Below, piece after piece: positions 5 through 14,314 of a stretch of 14,314 bases of DNA. Position 1 is the first letter of the stretch. Each line of letters starts with the position of its first letter. This DNA is from Candidatus Bathyarchaeota archaeon (GTDB lineage Archaea; Thermoproteota; Bathyarchaeia; 40CM-2-53-6), in the NCBI GenBank assembly GCA_005884605.1, contig VBBE01000151.1, forward strand, positions 1 through 14,314. Reading direction: 5' to 3'. Both the position numbers and the translations under genes were made by a program. The notes under the pieces were generated by a model that made no database searches, was not told the DNA's origin, and saw only the letters and a list, made by a program, of their open reading frames with translations.

Positions 5-735
5 ATGCCCCATCGGTTTCATCCACAGTTGAGGGCTGTCGAGCGTCTGATTGTAGGCAGGAAGAAGGAGAATGGTCACGGATAGTCTCTGGCGAGCTCA
101 CCCTTTGGGGATGGTTAACGCGTTCACCCCTACGGCATGTCCGGAACTTGCCTATGTAATAGGCGTGGCTCAGCGATGGCAATCTAAATGTTCACGAACA
201 CCATAGAGAGATTCTACTCAGCGTAACCGACAGAGACTTTGCGGAAGAATTCAGCAGATGTCTCGCAAAACTCCTCCACAGAGCCTTGCCCTACAAAGTT
301 TGGTGGAGCGAGAAGAGAAAGAGATGTATAGTCCAAGGAGCAAGTATTTTCCTCTACAAATTCCTCAGTCATCAATGGCTAGAACTGAAACCCTGGATCG
401 AACACTGCAACAAATGCACTGCTTGCTATCTCAGAGCTTTCTTCGATGGCGAGGGTTGCATAAGTCGTCGACAGCTTACAATCTCTAACACGAACGTGGA
501 ACTCTTGGTCTATGCGAGAGAGCTTCTACGGAAGTTTGGAGTCGAATCAACTGGCCCGTATCTCGGCAAATTGGCAGGCACAGTACTCAAAGATTCTCAA
601 ACAGGGAAGCTGTACAAAAGGAAAAAGAATTGCTACTATTCATACGTGAGTGTTCGAAATCTTCCGCAATTTGCGGAGCATATTGGGTTCACGATTGAGC
701 GAAAACAGAGACGCCTTCGAGCGGCCTGTACTTAG
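5..735 (+). pseudogene. Decayed free-standing LAGLIDADG homing endonuclease
   Basis: This is a LAGLIDADG-type DNA endonuclease gene that can only be read by changing frame. From 72 the frame gives a stretch ending PELAYVIGVA (to 170), the first half of a LAGLIDADG motif. The following residues SDGNLNVHEHH continue in another frame from 172, and that frame runs open to the TAG at 733-735. The second motif, YLRAFFDGEGC, lies at about 421-453. A one- or two-base indel at 168-172 therefore falls inside the first catalytic motif. A third frame from ATG at 5 gives MPHRFHPQLRAVERLIVGRK, which looks like the start of an N-terminal helix-turn-helix region and implies a further lesion near 70-85. The gene points at the 3' end of tRNA-Arg, 51 bp away. 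An ORF could restart at TTG 286 (149 aa), but it would lack motif 1. Family assignment is secure; exact ends are not. Confidence 0.72.
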
Positions 736-786: not shown

Positions 787-875
787 CGGGCCCGGCGGGA
801 TTTGAACCCGCGACCTTCGGCTCTCCCCTGAATGGTAGAGGGCCGACGCTACTGTCCGTACTGAGCTACGGGCCC
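787..875 (-). tRNA. tRNA-Arg (anticodon TCT) with a 13-nt anticodon-loop intron
   Basis: The minus strand folds as a tRNA. The acceptor is GGGCCCG / CGGGCCC with discriminator G at 787. The T-arm is GCGGG-TTCAAAT-CCCGC and the anticodon stem is TCGGC / GCCGA. The 20 nt between the anticodon-stem halves are a 7-nt loop plus a 13-nt insert between positions 37 and 38. Splicing gives the loop C-C-TCT-A-A, so Arg-TCT, and a mature length of 76. Two features are odd. Position 33 is C instead of the near-invariant U, and the 3' side of the D-stem reads GTAGC rather than GAGC, one base extra. The splice site forms a bulge-helix-bulge in which C33 pairs with an intron G. A TATA-like stretch CATTTTAC lies about 25-32 bp upstream (near 900-907). 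Discriminator G with no encoded CCA. Confidence 0.85.
823..835 (-). other. tRNA-Arg intron at 37/38
   Basis: This 13-nt intron starts CCATTC and ends GGGGAG on the minus strand. A bulge-helix-bulge fits: 5' helix strand CCTC (positions 32-35) pairs with intron GGGG, with three-nt bulges TA^C and AG^A and the anticodon stem TCGGC/GCCGA outside. The helix includes one U-G pair and the intron leaves only a six-nt terminal loop, so it is close to the minimum substrate for the archaeal splicing endonuclease. Confidence 0.7.
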
Positions 876-1727: not shown

Positions 1728-1826
1728 GGGCTCGTCGTCTAAGACGCCGTTAAAGCGTCGGCGAAGCCTGGTTAGGACGTCGCCCTGACACGGCGAAGGT
1801 CGCAGGTTCGAATCCTGCCGAGCCCA
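1728..1826 (+). tRNA. tRNA-Val (anticodon GAC) with a D-loop intron
   Basis: The acceptor GGGCTCG (1728-1734) pairs with CGAGCCC (1819-1825), with discriminator A at 1826. The anticodon arm is TCGCC-CTGACAC-GGCGA, so anticodon GAC, Val. The T-arm is GCAGG-TTCGAAT-CCTGC. The D-stem is GTCT (1737-1740) / GGAC. The D region is about 24 nt too long; removing 1742-1765 restores the ordinary loop A-GCCTGGTTA and a 75-nt mature tRNA. The anticodon loop itself is uninterrupted. No CCA is encoded. A weak AT-rich stretch (TTGATACAC, about 1694-1702) sits 26-34 bp upstream. Confidence 0.9.
1742..1765 (+). other. tRNA-Val non-canonical intron in the D-loop
   Basis: This 24-nt insertion sits in the D-loop (the boundary can slide by one A). 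It contains its own hairpin, GACGC (1743-1747) / GCGTC (1755-1759), around a seven-nt loop, with an alternative CGCC/GGCG pairing. I infer an intron because its removal restores a standard D-arm. A strict bulge-helix-bulge was not resolved by eye. Confidence 0.7.
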
Positions 1827-1879: not shown

Positions 1880-2705
1880 TCAATTTTTGAGGTTCGCCTT
1901 AGTTGGCGGTCTCATTGAGAACCGCGGTGAGTTGTACCGGCATGCTTCAGCCACTTTTTTGGAGATGAGGTCCTCGGTTAGGTACTGTTTCTTCCTTGTA
2001 AGACGACTATGTCTTGCAATGGGCCCGATGAAACATTTGAGATTTTGGCTTTTCCTAATTTCGAGTTGATAGTGGACGCTCGGCTTACGCTCGCGATTTC
2101 GGGTGCGTAGGAGACATTCCACACCAAACTCGCCCAACCTGTGTTCAATGATTCGTAAGGAAGACCCATTCGCACTATGAAGTACGAGCTTTGAAAGCCT
2201 CCCACTCGGTGCCAAAACAACTTGCCCCTCAGCATCGAAGAGCCCCGCAATATAGGGGCAGAATAGATTCTTCGACAATTTGGGCACGGTCCATCTCTGG
2301 GTACCAAAGTTCAACTTTTGTTTGAAGAGCCACCTGACCAATGTTCGCGAGTATACTGCGAGTCTAAGCCTGGGCTTCCGATGAAGCTTCGGTTTCTCAA
2401 GGTAGATGCTTGAGGAGAGTCTAAACAGACTGGTGACTAGACTCTTGGCGGGGTCTATGAGCTCGCGGTCTGTTGAGTGGAACCAAATTCCGTTTCTCAG
2501 GTCCACGCTACCGTCTCTGTAAGTACCCTATGAGCCACCAGAAATCTTGGTTTGCCAATGTGTTTTCGTTGATGGCCGGAATATTTGTCGTCGGTATCCT
2601 ATCGATCGCTCCATTGTTGACTGATATTGCGTAGATGAAAGTGAAACTACTCTCGACCAAAACACTCTGGTAAACAACACCAATTATCTTGCGACAATTG
2701 TGCAA
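1880..2705 (-). pseudogene. Second decayed LAGLIDADG homing endonuclease
   Basis: Two reading frames join into one LAGLIDADG protein. The upstream frame (ATG at 2705 to TAG at 2508) ends NQDFWWLIGYLQ, the first half of motif 1. The downstream frame picks up as DGSVDLRNGIWFHSTDREL and runs to 1880 (208 aa from GTG 2506). It contains motif 2, YIAGLFDAEGQV, at roughly residues 85-96 of that frame. The break at about 2511-2522 is a one- or two-base indel immediately before the catalytic Asp-Gly of motif 1. The first 45 or so residues of the upstream ORF are hydrophobic and unlike typical endonuclease N-termini. The true start could instead be TTG close to the motif. The gene converges on tRNA-Val with a 53-bp gap. 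The 208-aa piece alone would keep only motif 2. Confidence 0.7.
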
Positions 2706-6121: not shown

Positions 6122-6204
6122 TTTCGGACCCCCCGTGGGCCTACTCGAACCTCGCGCGCCAGAGCCTATTCGTGGTGGACCGGGCGGGATTTGAACCCGC
6201 GGCC

Positions 6205-6226
6205 CTACGGAGCAGGGTTAGTGCCT
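6205..6226 (-). other. tRNA-Ala intron 3, variable loop
   Basis: This 22-nt insert lies between anticodon stem and T-stem and starts AGGCAC, ending CCGTAG on the minus strand. Removing it leaves a five-nt variable loop AGGCC. Boundaries may slide; the bulge-helix-bulge was not resolved by eye. Confidence 0.6.
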
Positions 6227-6233
6227 TCCCGCA

Positions 6234-6252
6234 CTCAGGGTCGAGGATGACC
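6234..6252 (-). other. tRNA-Ala intron 2, canonical site 37/38
   Basis: This 19-nt insert starts GGTCAT and ends CCTGAG. Canonical geometry fits: anticodon stem CCCGC/GCGGG outside, central four-pair helix TTGG/CCTG with one U-U mismatch, bulges CA^G and AG^T, and an inner GTC/GAC helix. Confidence 0.78.
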
Positions 6253-6268
6253 TGCCAAGCGGGCGATC

Positions 6269-6292
6269 TTCGGCCAGCCCTAACGCGCTGTG
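6269..6292 (-). other. tRNA-Ala intron 1, D-loop
   Basis: This 24-nt insert starts CACAGC and ends GCCGAA, between D-loop sequence AGCCTGGTA and the 3' D-stem GATC. A relaxed bulge-helix-bulge is possible: inner CAGC/GCTG, bulge ACA, helix TGGT/GCCG with two wobbles, bulge AAG. It has the same length as the tRNA-Val D-loop intron, but the sequence is not obviously the same. Confidence 0.68.
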
Positions 6293-6340
6293 TACCAGGC
6301 TGATCTACCGGCCCACGGAGACCGCGAAACCTACGACCCA

Positions 6341-8387: not shown

Positions 8388-10685
8388 ATGACTGCTGAAG
8401 TGTTAGATATTCAAGACTTGGACGGCGTCGGACCGGTCACCGCAAACAAGCTTCGGGAAGCAGGCTACGACTCTATCTCGGCCCTCGCCATCGCCCCTAT
8501 ACGCGAGCTTGTCGAGAAAGCCGGTCTCGAGAGCAGCGTTGCCCACAAGATCAGCAAAGCTGCTCGCGAAACCATCCAGACGGACTTTGTCACTGCCAAA
8601 CAGTTATGGGAGCGACGCAAGACTCTGCTCCGCCTCAGCTTCGGATCGAGCAACCTCAACACGCTGTTGGGTGGTGGACTAGAGACTCAGGCTATCACCG
8701 AGTTCGTCGGCGAATTCGGCGCGGGCAAATGTGTAAACAAAGACTCGATAATTTTTACGTCCACCGGGCCCACAATTGCTTCTGATCTATCGCTCGCTGA
8801 TTCGCCTTTTGAGATTGATTCCGCGAATCACGCAACTTCGGGTAAGGCTTTGCGAAAGTTTCTGCAGGATGTGCCCAAACCGGTTGAGATCAAAGCCTCA
8901 GGAGGTTTCAGAGTGATCTGCAGTCCACAGCACAGGTTCTTCACATTAGACAATGAAGCCCAACTCGCGGAGATTCATGCAGGAGATCTGAAGGAAAAAC
9001 GATGGTTAGCAGTAATTCGCAGACTGCCTCTCGTCGAGGAGCCCTATGAGCTTCCTTCTCCTTCAACAGAGCATGGTAAACAGTATGCGTTCCCAGCGAA
9101 GGTCAGTGTTGAGCTCGCAAAGCTGCTTGGATACCTTGCAAGTGAAGGGTCTCTTCAATGGGCACAGAATTCATGCACTCTAGTCTTCACCAATACTGAC
9201 AAGGACCTGCAAAAAGAGTACAGTAGGTGTTTCGAAAAAACTTTCGGCACTCCCTCACATTCGCCCCCAAGTCATCCCCATGATCAGATTGTCTGCTCAG
9301 TCCAGATAGGAGATTGGTTTGTGAAACTGATGCCGACGCTAAAGAGTAAAGGAGAGGGTAAGACTGCAAGAAAGCTTCTACCTAAGCAAGCCCTACGTCT
9401 TGGAGCAGACGAAACTAAGGCGCTGATCCGGGCGTATTTTGACGGCGATGGGTGGGCGCAAGAGAAAGCGCCTTTAATCGAACTCTACTCAGTCCACCAG
9501 CCGCTACTCGAACAGCTCCGGTTTCTATTGTTGAAACTAGGAATATACGCTAGAATGCGATATGGTAAGTCTTTGGCGATAAGTGGAGAGTACGCCCTCA
9601 AATTTGCCAACGAGATAGGATCCGATAGGACTGCAAACATAGAAAAATTCAGTAAATGGAATATAGAGCGCAGAAACTTCATTGCAGACATTATTCCTGT
9701 TCCCAGAAAAATCTTCCACAGACTAGGACATCTTCTAGGCTTGAACTCTGAAAGCCCTGTTTGGAAAAGATGGGTGAAGAACTATCTAGTTATTGACCAG
9801 GCATATCCTACTAGGCATACGCTTCAGGAACTCATCCGAAACATCAACACCTTTTCTACGGATGCAAAGAAAGCAGGCTTTGCCTTTGAAAAAGAGGCCG
9901 AGCATATCATAGATCGACTCAACACTTTGGTCGAGAGCGATCTTGCATGGGAAAAGGTCCTCAGTGTCGAGGAAAAGAATGGACCGGTAGAAATGGTCGA
10001 CTACGAAGTTAATCCGCACCACAACTACATCGTCAACGGATTCGTGACCCATAATTCTCAGATCTCTATGAAACTGAGTATTCAGACTCAGCTTTCCGCG
10101 GCAGAGGGCGGATTGGAGGGGAAGGTTCTCTTCATCGATACTGAGGGGACTTTCGCGGCCCAACGAGTATTCCAGATGGCCCAGGCTAGTGGTCAGGATG
10201 CTGACAAGATTCTCGACGGCATCATCTATAGCCGTGTTTACAATAGTGACCATCAGATACTGACTGTTGATCACGCTTTCAAGATCTGCAAGGAAGAAAA
10301 TATCAAACTGCTTGTTGTCGATTCTATCCTCTCACACTTCCGCGGGGAATATATTGGTCGAGAGTCCCTCAGTGAACGACAGCAGCGTTTGAACAGCCAT
10401 CTCCATAAGCTCCTCCGCATCGCTCAAGCTCTCAACCTTGCAGTCGTCGTCACCAATCAGGTGCAGGCTAATCCGCAGGCGTTCTTCGGCGATCCTATGC
10501 GCCCTGCAGGCGGGAACATCATGGCGCATGCATCAACCCATCGTATCATGCTCAAAAAGTCCAGTCAGGGACTACGCGTTGCCAAGGTCATAGATTCACC
10601 CTATCTGCCAGAATCCGAGACCTACTTCCGCATCACGGAGAAGGGTGTGGAAGACGCTGTCCCCCGCAACAAACGCGACGAATAG
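8388..10685 (+). CDS. radA: RadA recombinase precursor with in-frame intein
   Basis: RadA is the archaeal Rad51/RecA homologue that forms filaments on single-stranded DNA and drives strand exchange using ATP. The precursor is 765 aa from ATG 8388; after intein removal it is about 323 aa, normal for RadA. The N-terminal helix-hairpin-helix domain includes LDGVGPVTANKLREAGY (11-27). The core begins GGGLETQAITEFVGEFGAGK, where Walker A is cut by the intein after Lys114 and resumes SQISMKLSIQ. Walker B is LLVVDSILSHF. EYIGRESLSERQQRLN and the L2 region NQVQANPQAFFGDP with GGNIMAHAS complete the fold. A GTG at 8367 would add seven residues, but family N-termini favour ATG 8388. A paralogue follows after 23 bp. 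RadA activity depends on intein splicing because the ATP site is split. Confidence 0.96.
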   Translation: MTAEVLDIQDLDGVGPVTANKLREAGYDSISALAIAPIRELVEKAGLESSVAHKISKAARETIQTDFVTAKQLWERRKTLLRLSFGSSNLNTLLGGGLETQAITEFVGEFGAGKCVNKDSIIFTSTGPTIASDLSLADSPFEIDSANHATSGKALRKFLQDVPKPVEIKASGGFRVICSPQHRFFTLDNEAQLAEIHAGDLKEKRWLAVIRRLPLVEEPYELPSPSTEHGKQYAFPAKVSVELAKLLGYLASEGSLQWAQNSCTLVFTNTDKDLQKEYSRCFEKTFGTPSHSPPSHPHDQIVCSVQIGDWFVKLMPTLKSKGEGKTARKLLPKQALRLGADETKALIRAYFDGDGWAQEKAPLIELYSVHQPLLEQLRFLLLKLGIYARMRYGKSLAISGEYALKFANEIGSDRTANIEKFSKWNIERRNFIADIIPVPRKIFHRLGHLLGLNSESPVWKRWVKNYLVIDQAYPTRHTLQELIRNINTFSTDAKKAGFAFEKEAEHIIDRLNTLVESDLAWEKVLSVEEKNGPVEMVDYEVNPHHNYIVNGFVTHNSQISMKLSIQTQLSAAEGGLEGKVLFIDTEGTFAAQRVFQMAQASGQDADKILDGIIYSRVYNSDHQILTVDHAFKICKEENIKLLVVDSILSHFRGEYIGRESLSERQQRLNSHLHKLLRIAQALNLAVVVTNQVQANPQAFFGDPMRPAGGNIMAHASTHRIMLKKSSQGLRVAKVIDSPYLPESETYFRITEKGVEDAVPRNKRDE
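8730..10055 (+). other. RadA intein, 442 aa, with LAGLIDADG endonuclease
   Basis: The intein starts with Cys1 (CVNKDSIIF) and ends HHNYIVNGFVTHN, followed by extein Ser. All splicing nucleophiles are present. The block-B motif is SPQHRFF with the His, although Ser replaces the usual Thr. The endonuclease core has both motifs, LLGYLASEGSL (132-142, acidic Glu139) and LIRAYFDGDGW (232-242, Asp240), so it could still cut DNA. The insertion point, after the Walker A Lys, is a known RadA intein site in archaea. The intein is visibly more AT-rich than the flanking extein, consistent with horizontal arrival. Confidence 0.95.
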
Positions 10686-11962: not shown

Positions 11963-14314
11963 TTATGAAAACGGTCTTTGGTGGGCTGTAGGCCGTTTCA
12001 TCTCGGTTGTCTTGAACATGGATCGAAGGTATTTCGTGTCGTACCCGAGGGGTAAGAGGAGGTTTGCTGTTGAAGAGCAGAGAAGGTCGACGTACCGCTC
12101 CGAATCATAGACTGTGCCTTGATCGACAATCTCGGGCGGTACAGCCGTGCGGGTCTGGTCATTGGTTAGGATGTAGCTGACTTGCTGTCCCGCGTGCACT
12201 GAACCTCCATGTGCAACAAGATGTCTCGCAGCTATCGCCTGGGGAACCTGGTGACTGTACTCGTCCGGATTCTTGCTCAAGTTCCTGACTATCACAAGAT
12301 CCTCCAGGGGAACGCTGCCGTCTCGCAGCGAGCTTACGAACTTTTCCAGGATCTTGAGAGCGCTGGGAATGAGAAGTCTGAACTCGTTTGAATCACGAGC
12401 CCTGGTGAGGATATCTAGCATCTCCGTCTGGCACTGTCGAACGATATCGGGAGTATCATGTCTTCGAAGGTCTATTCCGCGAACTTTGAGTGTTCCATCT
12501 TCGAAAATACCATAGTACCTGTTTAGCACTCCGACCTTCGAGTCTGTCTTCGAACTGAGAAAAACAATCCACTTGTATATTCCCTCGAAAGAGATCGGTA
12601 GCCTAAGCTCTTCACGGATGATTCTGCAGAGGTCCTCGTACTCGCTTCTTGTCGCTTCATGCTTGCGCAGCCAGAACGAATCGACTATTCCATGGACAAG
12701 CTTGAAACCACGAGCCTCAGCCAGAGCTGCCGCCTGTCCCAGAACCTGTCTGCTGAAAGCGCAGGTCGCTATGTGAGCATCTATCTTTCCAAAACGAGCA
12801 TTCTTGAAGCCAAGATAGCCGAAGGAGTTGTGGACAAGAACCCCACCGGATCCTGTAAAGAAAGCAGGAAAGTTCTCATCGTTCGAGATCTCAAAACAAT
12901 ACACAAAGGGAGAAGAAGATTCGATCTGCTCGATTTTTTTTACGGCGACAAAACCAATATCAGAATCTAGCAGATTCATGATTCGAGAGTGGGCGTCTCG
13001 TAGTCGAGAAGAGTGAATGTGTCTTCGTTCCTTTTTCAGGGCAAATTGAAGAGTGTTCGAAGAAGAGCTCACGACTGATTGGAGGCTATCACTTTTGGCG
13101 CGCCAAAGGTTGTTCTCAGTCTGGCCTATCTCCTGTCTAACTCGTTCTAGAAGATCTAATCTCGAAACTGTTGCATTGTGAACGATTCCTTTGGCTACTG
13201 GTACGAGGTCTCCTTTTGACAACTTCTCCGCGTTTATTTCAACCAGGTGCCCATTTCTCAGAACATAAAATGAATGATTAGGAGTGCATTCTACTTGCCT
13301 ACCATCATCCATTCTTACTCTCAGGAGTTTTTCTGGAGAAGGAGTCTTGATTAGTTTCGAGACTCTGCAAAATTTTGACCTTAGATTCTTATCGACTCCT
13401 GCAACAAACAATTCCTGAGGACAATCAAAGACTCCTACGTTCTCACCTAATAGCTGGTCGATGATTTCGCCAATTTGTTCGTAACTGACCCTTCCATTCC
13501 GAGAGATCAGTACAGGTGATTCAGGCGGTAAGCAACAAACTAGGATCCACTTGAGCGCAGCCTGACGTTGGTCATAAAGCGTCTTCAACTCCTCGTCCAC
13601 GACAGTTTTCTTGGCAACCTTGTACCGGGCTCGCTTGTCGAGCAGGATTTTCAGGGAAAGAGGAACGATGCCAGCCGATCGTTCGCAGATGTTGAACTCG
13701 AGCTCTGGAACACGGTTCGCGGAATCGGGGCAACATGTACAGTTGACAGTTTCACCGCTAAGATTCATCCGCGTCATGAGCGTCGGATAGAGACTGTTAT
13801 GGGTCAAGATGCCGTTGGCAAAATAGTATGGGAATTCTTCCCATTCAAGCGTTATGTCATACACGTAATCATCGTAGTCTAGTATCTCCTTGTTGATGAC
13901 TCGTACCTCTCGCAAGAACGAGAGTGCGTTGTTTTTTCGCGCTTTGAGATATACTCCAAAGCGAGGATTATTGTAGTGTTGGGCTTTCCTAATACGAGTA
14001 AGCATTATCTGGCGAAGTTTTTCTTCTTTATTTTTCGAAATAAAACCAACTTGTGTGTAATACCTTACATGCGCCTCTAAGCCTGAAAGTTCTAAAAAGA
14101 GTGTTGGGTTAGTTGAATACGCATACTTGTACGTTCCGACGCGATTTTTGATGTTTAACTCGCGCAGATAGTTGCACACAATTTCTAGTTTTTCAGTGTT
14201 AACGAATGATTGGTTGCATTGAATTGTATTTCGTCTGGTGTTTACACCGCCGTCACCTTCAAAGAAACCTCGTAGGAATGATGCTTTTTCGTCTAGAGTC
14301 AGGTAATGATTTGC
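11963..14314 (-). CDS. polB: Family B DNA polymerase precursor, C-terminal part, with two inteins (5' end outside window)
   Basis: The frame is open to the window edge, so the start and the exonuclease domain are missing. Extein pieces are: SLYPTLMTRMN (region II, after intein 1), a fingers segment with LLDKRARYKV and ALKWILVC, then after intein 2 SFGYLGFKNARFGKID (region III end), HGIVDSFWL (region I, usually YxDTDS; the second, essential Asp is kept), FLSSKTDSKVGVLNRYYG (KxY-like region), and a thumb domain ending at TAA 11963. The HGIVDS form, rather than YGDTDS, is in my recollection typical of some TACK-lineage PolB enzymes. Both inteins sit at active-site motifs, so polymerase activity needs two splicing events. 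The internal GTG at 14179 is not the real start. The gene converges on the radA pair. Confidence 0.94.
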   Translation of the reverse strand, partial: ANHYLTLDEKASFLRGFFEGDGGVNTRRNTIQCNQSFVNTEKLEIVCNYLRELNIKNRVGTYKYAYSTNPTLFLELSGLEAHVRYYTQVGFISKNKEEKLRQIMLTRIRKAQHYNNPRFGVYLKARKNNALSFLREVRVINKEILDYDDYVYDITLEWEEFPYYFANGILTHNSLYPTLMTRMNLSGETVNCTCCPDSANRVPELEFNICERSAGIVPLSLKILLDKRARYKVAKKTVVDEELKTLYDQRQAALKWILVCCLPPESPVLISRNGRVSYEQIGEIIDQLLGENVGVFDCPQELFVAGVDKNLRSKFCRVSKLIKTPSPEKLLRVRMDDGRQVECTPNHSFYVLRNGHLVEINAEKLSKGDLVPVAKGIVHNATVSRLDLLERVRQEIGQTENNLWRAKSDSLQSVVSSSSNTLQFALKKERRHIHSSRLRDAHSRIMNLLDSDIGFVAVKKIEQIESSSPFVYCFEISNDENFPAFFTGSGGVLVHNSFGYLGFKNARFGKIDAHIATCAFSRQVLGQAAALAEARGFKLVHGIVDSFWLRKHEATRSEYEDLCRIIREELRLPISFEGIYKWIVFLSSKTDSKVGVLNRYYGIFEDGTLKVRGIDLRRHDTPDIVRQCQTEMLDILTRARDSNEFRLLIPSALKILEKFVSSLRDGSVPLEDLVIVRNLSKNPDEYSHQVPQAIAARHLVAHGGSVHAGQQVSYILTNDQTRTAVPPEIVDQGTVYDSERYVDLLCSSTANLLLPLGYDTKYLRSMFKTTEMKRPTAHQRPFS
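12827..13534 (-). other. PolB intein 2, 236-aa mini-intein
   Basis: It starts CLPPESPVLISRNGRVSYEQ after extein Cys and ends GSGGVLVHN before extein Ser-Phe-Gly in polymerase region III. Block B is CTPNHSFYVL with the Thr-x-x-His. The splicing domain is complete. There is no LAGLIDADG motif; instead residues about 120-195 form a charged, Ser-rich helical linker (QEIGQTENNLWRAKSDSLQS and onward). This is an endonuclease-free mini-intein at a site used by larger inteins in other archaeal PolB proteins. Splicing looks competent; homing does not. Confidence 0.92.
13796..14314 (-). other. PolB intein 1, C-terminal 173 aa, with LAGLIDADG endonuclease
   Basis: The sequence from the window edge contains LAGLIDADG motif 2, FLRGFFEGDGGV (about 14243-14278). 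It continues through the endonuclease domain and ends with the splicing blocks DYVYDITLEWEE and YYFANGILTHN, followed by extein SLYPT in polymerase region II. The C-terminal His-Asn and extein Ser are intact. Its N-terminus and motif 1 lie outside the window. Confidence 0.93.

Follow-up and report, generated by a model that had tools for sequence, protein, structure and literature searches.

The minus strand of the window (the whole 14,314-nt contig analysed here) very probably carries a tRNA-Ala(GGC) gene with three introns, located at position 21/22 (23 nt), at 37/38 (19 nt) and at 44/45 (22 nt), each predicted to be cut at a bulge-helix-bulge motif. An earlier note on this DNA had proposed one tRNA-Ala gene broken by three introns at three sites, and this proposal is borne out by orthologues that carry 0, 1, 2 and 3 of the inserts.

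Gene structure and predicted splice junctions

The 142-nt precursor, which includes an encoded CCA, occupies 6314..6173 of the minus strand (Table 1). The interval 6176..6314 given earlier does contain the gene, but its end falls at A73. The acceptor stem (GGGCCGG/CCGGUCC) includes G3-U70, the pair read by alanyl-tRNA synthetase, and the T-arm and the encoded CCA are present as well; on G3-U70 and CCA the note was right. It was also right on the sizes of the 37/38 insert (19 nt) and of the variable-loop insert (22 nt, after position 44). Its 24-nt D-loop insert, by contrast, has to be shortened to 23 nt because the D-loop of the intronless orthologues L225-L227 comprises 10 nt (AGCCTGGTAT). 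The bulge-helix-bulge rule likewise puts the D-arm cleavage sites after positions 23 and 46 of the precursor. The inserts therefore sum to 64 nt, and their removal leaves 75 nt to A73 (78 nt with CCA), instead of 65 and 74 nt. Since our automatic parser returned an unstable D-arm boundary for Ala-GGC (21, 22 or 23 nt), this boundary was fixed via the empty sites in relatives.

Table 1. Positions in the window of the tRNA-Ala(GGC) gene, its exons and predicted introns, and two further intron-bearing tRNA genes.
Feature	Position	Strand	Basis or remark
tRNA-Ala(GGC) precursor, 142 nt incl. CCA	6173..6314	-	identical precursor in L002, L006, L163, L202
Exon 1: acceptor 5' strand, D-stem 5' strand, D-loop (GGGCCGGTAGATCAGCCTGGTAC)	6292..6314	-	aligned with intronless orthologues L225-L227
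D-arm intron, 23 nt, position 21/22	6269..6291 (precursor 24-46)	-	bulge-helix-bulge; empty site in L225-L227, L237
Exon 2: D-stem 3' strand, anticodon stem 5' strand, anticodon GGC, A37	6253..6268	-	orthologue comparison
Canonical 37/38 intron, 19 nt	6234..6252 (precursor 63-81)	-	relaxed bulge-helix-bulge; empty site in L225-L228, L230
Exon 3: T38, anticodon stem 3' strand, A44 (TGCGGGA)	6227..6233	-	orthologue comparison
Variable-loop intron, 22 nt, position 44/45	6205..6226 (precursor 89-110)	-	bulge-helix-bulge; empty site in L225-L228, L230, L235, L241, L243, L244
Exon 4: variable-loop GGCC, T-arm, acceptor 3' strand, A73, CCA	6173..6204	-	sequence and orthologue comparison
tRNA-Val(GAC), 24-nt D-loop intron at 1742-1765	1728..1826	+	same intron in L004, L007, L008, L009, L011
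tRNA-Arg(UCU), 13-nt 37/38 intron at 823-835	787..875	-	unspliced form taken for Glu(CTC) by ARAGORN

Removal of all three inserts left a 78-nt product that forms a perfect cloverleaf and is called tRNA-Ala(ggc) by ARAGORN, in agreement with the textbook tRNA that had been anticipated. ARAGORN made no call on the unspliced gene or on any form with one insert removed. With two inserts removed, the outcome was Ala(ggc) without the D-arm and 37/38 inserts, Gln(ctg) without the 37/38 and variable-loop inserts, and no call without the D-arm and variable-loop inserts. When three random segments of equal sizes were removed, Ala(ggc) was called in 43 of 3,000 trials.

All three junctions fit a bulge-helix-bulge model, a check which the note had recommended, with the 37/38 junction being the weakest. 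Cuts (^) were placed after the second letter of each bulge. The D-arm junction (TGGT.AC^A and GCCG.AA^G) has a strict central helix TGGT/GCCG and an inner helix CAGC/GCTG, and the variable-loop junction (GCGG.GA^A and CCGT.AG^G) combines a strict central helix GCGG/CCGT with an inner helix GGCA/TGCT. At the 37/38 junction (TTGG.CA^G and CCTG.AG^T) the central helix TTGG/CCTG is relaxed, with 3 of 4 pairs formed, and is accompanied by an inner helix GTC/GAC; a T-T mismatch occurs in this motif in 13 of 17 sequences. Shuffling of the intron letters with the exons fixed matched or exceeded the observed number of central and inner pairs in 15 (D-arm), 335 (37/38) and 4 (variable loop) of 20,000 shuffles each. 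The stability of the unspliced precursor as a whole was unremarkable (z -1.35), with 20 of 200 shuffles folding equally well.

Orthologues and conservation of the variable-loop intron

Searching with the C-terminal portion of the RadA encoded in the window yielded 80 loci, the best 15 of which belong to soil Bathyarchaeota-type assemblies; the nearest nine are 99-100% identical over the RadA residues. We infer that these relatives stem from grassland soil, partly via the accounts of Bathyarchaeota in PMC6784897 and PMC5103831; introns go unmentioned in the Bathyarchaeota portions of these two papers. The window's RadA gene contains an intein at about 8729-10052 that is missing from all 11 nearest loci (L001-L011, DNA alignment). 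A second intein, in DNA polymerase B (about 12824-13533), is missing from L001, L004, L005, L006 and L009; L003, L008 and L011 instead contain about 0.9 kb of additional DNA near 13012, which may represent an endonuclease domain that the window has lost.

The orthologous tRNA-Ala gene was located in 29 of the order's 38 genomes. Of the loci with a precursor identical to that of the window, L002 and L006 come from separate records. The family of G001 comprises 21 genomes, 19 of which have a gene with this D-stem, without a match in G010 and G020, and all 19 genes, representing 17 distinct sequences, contain the three inserts. Outside the family the gene was identified in 10 of 17 genomes, which differ in intron content: G022-G024 share one identical sequence with no insert, G025 and G026 have the D-arm intron only, G028, G033, G034 and G036 have the D-arm and 37/38 introns, and G029 has the 37/38 and variable-loop introns. 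Each of the three sites is thus empty in at least one relative. The variable loop comprises 5 nt (AGGTC) in 9 of these 10 genomes, and a class II tRNA with a long variable arm was rejected on this ground.

D-arm introns, as read by eye, occupy two sites: one, used throughout the family apart from G021, precedes GATC, and the other lies inside the D-stem 3' strand in G021, G025, G026, G028, G033 and G034, which implies that D-arm insertion was repeated or shifted. The variable-loop introns of G029 (L237) and G021 (L172) are of other sequence with the CCGT core opposite GCGG kept. Thr-CGT and Val-TAC genes (L083, L142, L179, L246) likewise have an intron in the variable loop, placed as in Ala-GGC and sharing its GCGG/CCGY core.

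In the alignment of 17 precursors, 94.9% of the cells in the proposed helices pair, compared to 28.6-50.0% with slid partners. The covariation support is weaker than it appears. Five pairs are changed on both sides, three of them owing to L172, whose inserts differ. Without L172 two double-sided pairs are left, both in the D-arm inner helix and both in L161 and L175, perhaps reflecting one event, and none was found in the 37/38 and variable-loop introns inside the G001 family. The stronger case for a variable-loop intron is that L237 and L172 differ in sequence yet set CCGT opposite GCGG.

Among 16 family precursors (L172 was left out since its inserts differ), mean pairwise identity was 99.5% in the exons and 95.5% in the variable-loop intron, but 69.7% and 65.7% in the D-arm and 37/38 introns, respectively. 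In the intron loops, identity was 36.0% (D-arm), 34.5% (37/38) and 87.7% (variable loop). Of the 38 genomes searched for the core of the variable-loop intron (CACTAACMCTGCTC), 14 contain it as a single copy and G006 contains it twice; being mostly single-copy per genome, it is not a repeat element. The second near copy in G006 was set aside as apparently coding DNA (by eye). Pairing of the variable-loop intron with the D-arm intron (GTTAG/CTAAC in the window) was also considered and dropped, as it fails in relatives such as L156 (alignment, by eye).

It is conceivable, although we hold it to be rather unlikely, that this near-exon conservation means that the variable-loop intron does something, be it as a 22-nt RNA acting as guide or regulator, as a loop-controlled switch between motif and anticodon stem, or as a part kept in the mature tRNA. 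The family would then constitute a mesophilic radiation of tRNA introns at least as dense as that of the Thermoproteales, with one intron put to use. The last of these variants in its specific form, in which the D-arm and 37/38 inserts are spliced and the variable-loop insert persists as an enlarged variable arm tolerated by alanyl-tRNA synthetase, is improbable. It would account for the identity of this insert, which is close to that of the exons and far above that of the other introns over both the full length and the loop, and for the Ala(ggc) call that ARAGORN makes with the insert still in. However, orthologues outside the family have the plain AGGTC variable loop, L237 and L172 hold different inserts there with the splice core kept, and the site and core are common to Val-TAC and Thr-CGT.

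We consider it highly unlikely that the locus is a degenerate pseudogene whose inserts are random and that another gene supplies tRNA-Ala(GGC). A second copy may exist outside the 14,314-nt contig, but the exons of the 16 family precursors are almost invariant while the introns drift, each of the 19 family genomes having the gene contains one copy with this D-stem, and the spliced product is a perfect cloverleaf. The probability that the locus encodes a transfer-messenger RNA or another tRNA-like RNA is close to nil: tmRNA (RF00023) is the one Rfam match here, but its 25.6 bits lie below the cut-off of 47 bits and rest on the acceptor and T-arm, and the intronless orthologues are plain tRNA-Ala.

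Predicted processing of the precursor

For a tRNA-Ala(GGC) gene with three introns, the two-subunit (alpha2beta2) form of tRNA-splicing endonuclease would most likely cut the bulge-helix-bulge motifs, after which archaeal tRNA ligase would join the exons. Transcription, actual splicing and the splicing order are what we infer. Two PF01974 tRNA-splicing endonuclease genes were detected in the genomes of 7 of 7 relatives, one scoring 89-96 bits and the other 45-53 bits. Subunits were inspected in one of these seven pairs, that of G003. The higher-scoring G003 protein aligned to the solved endonuclease 3p1z across Tyr, His and Lys, and 3ajv has Ala at that His position, in agreement with a catalytic His. 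In the second protein, compared with 1a79, Phe and Arg replace Tyr and His and a Lys aligns. The G003 pair has the pattern of an alpha2beta2 endonuclease, with one putative catalytic subunit and one without Tyr and His. Endonucleases of this type are described as accepting relaxed motifs (PMC4090602, PMC7714728).

In the variable-loop motif, one side of the central helix is GCGG (positions 39-42), which also closes the anticodon stem. Variable-loop motif and anticodon stem are therefore mutually exclusive, and it follows that cutting of this intron would require an open anticodon stem. Forced folds of the unspliced precursor reached -61.5 kcal/mol with the anticodon stem and -61.4 kcal/mol with the D-arm motif plus the anticodon stem. 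Relative to the best fold with the anticodon stem, the fold with the variable-loop motif (-57.5 kcal/mol) was less stable by about 4 kcal/mol and that with the 37/38 motif (-54.4 kcal/mol) by about 7 kcal/mol. These energies imply that the D-arm motif is ready made and that the 37/38 and variable-loop motifs need local opening. The introns would probably be removed singly, one after another; for neighbouring introns, the authors of tRNAscan-SE describe that one is removed before the next motif can form (PMC8450103).

Other tRNA genes and comparison with known systems

General tRNA finders miss or miscall most such intron-bearing genes, which is a warning for annotation. RF00005, which gave no match at the tRNA-Ala locus of the window, reaches the orthologous gene in G005 (36.5 bits) and G006 (36.1 bits), and in seven relatives it recovers only 10-19 tRNAs per genome. 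At the tRNA-Val(GAC) gene of the window Rfam detected only 1760-1826. The intron-bearing Arg gene in L008 (3287-3378) is called tRNA-Pyl by ARAGORN; this false isotype and the Glu call on the Arg gene of the window are caused by the introns. At position 33 the tRNA-Arg(UCU) of the window carries C where U is usual, as is the case in 5 of 5 relatives checked (L004, L007, L008, L009, L011); this C might be edited or tolerated. Two LAGLIDADG_3 reading frames outside the inteins, at 286-735 (+) and 1880-2506 (-), flank the Arg and Val tRNA genes.

An intron census with our own parser, limited to resolved genes and with some sites unsure, counted 30 resolved tRNA species with about 57 introns in G003, of which 27 have at least one intron and 9 have three. 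For G001 the figures were 49 introns in 26 tRNA species from 30 candidates, with 24 having at least one and 8 having three. The G003 count is based on T-arm-anchored loci (31 clean parses of 34 candidates), takes each species once and adds L117 (Gly-GCC). It leaves out L091, L092 and L099 (poor or no parse), the second copies L094 and L106, and the loci without a strict T-arm (L084, L089, L096, L098, L100, L103, L114). These data provisionally indicate that three-intron tRNAs are common in this soil Bathyarchaeota lineage.

Individual G003 genes have inserts at further sites. The tRNA-Gly(GCC) of L117 has, besides a 37/38 intron, a T-arm intron of 26 nt at 53/54 with a strict bulge-helix-bulge motif. 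L098, a Ser-like tRNA, has a 50-nt T-loop insert near 59/60, and its anticodon arm contains further inserts. The 172-nt tRNA-Asp(GTC) precursor L092 contains about 50 extra nt near positions 7-9 together with D-arm and variable-region inserts and might hold four introns; the four-intron solution proposed by the parser was rejected because its two adjacent 5' inserts give no proper U8. In Leu-TAA a T-loop intron appeared in the first parse and was placed otherwise in later parses, and the third site is unsure.

Archaeal tRNA genes are described as having up to three introns, mainly in Thermoproteales (PMC4390854, PMC4033280, PMC8450103), with three each in Pyrobaculum tRNA-Glu(UUC) and tRNA-Pro(UGG) (PMC4390854). 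The view of the earlier note that three-intron tRNAs are rare and mainly a matter of Thermoproteales holds for archaea at large but not for this lineage, where they appear common, and its link to Thermoproteales does not extend to the host, a soil Bathyarchaeota member outside that order. Most intron-loaded archaeal tRNA examples come from hyperthermophiles. In the literature searched, with subscription papers and tRNA databases outside its scope, no report of multi-intron tRNAs in Bathyarchaeota or Bathyarchaeia was found. Multi-intron tRNA genes look unusually common in this group of soil archaea. As tRNA-Ala(GGC) orthologues with 0 to 3 introns exist in one order, site-specific gain and loss and the order of removal become directly testable.

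Since multi-intron tRNAs are known in Thermoproteales and in soil Asgard archaea, the tRNA-Ala(GGC) gene belongs to a known kind. It resembles the multi-intron pre-tRNAs of Thermoproteales in that a gene can hold as many as three short bulge-helix-bulge introns, at canonical and non-canonical sites, and in the probable two-subunit endonuclease, but differs in its phylum-level lineage and soil habitat. Intron density in G003 is about 1.9 per gene (57 in 30, resolved genes only), compared to 71 introns in 46 genes in P. calidifontis and 0.84 tRNA introns per gene in Thermoproteales (PMC8450103). In the soil Asgard Atabeyarchaeia and Freyarchaeia, introns are reported in 92-95% of tRNA genes, often at non-canonical positions, with more than half having several (PMC11291895). 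The likeness to these archaea lies in intron-rich tRNAs of soil archaea; they are Asgard archaea, whereas the present host belongs to Bathyarchaeota.

The common site and core of the variable-loop introns in Ala-GGC, Val-TAC and Thr-CGT hint at a possible movement of introns between tRNA genes. Intron transposition between tRNA genes was reportedly described in Thermoproteales by Fujishima et al. in 2010. The introns in the three genes resemble that case in sharing one site and one core beside similar exon letters, but differ from it in that only a short core is common to them.
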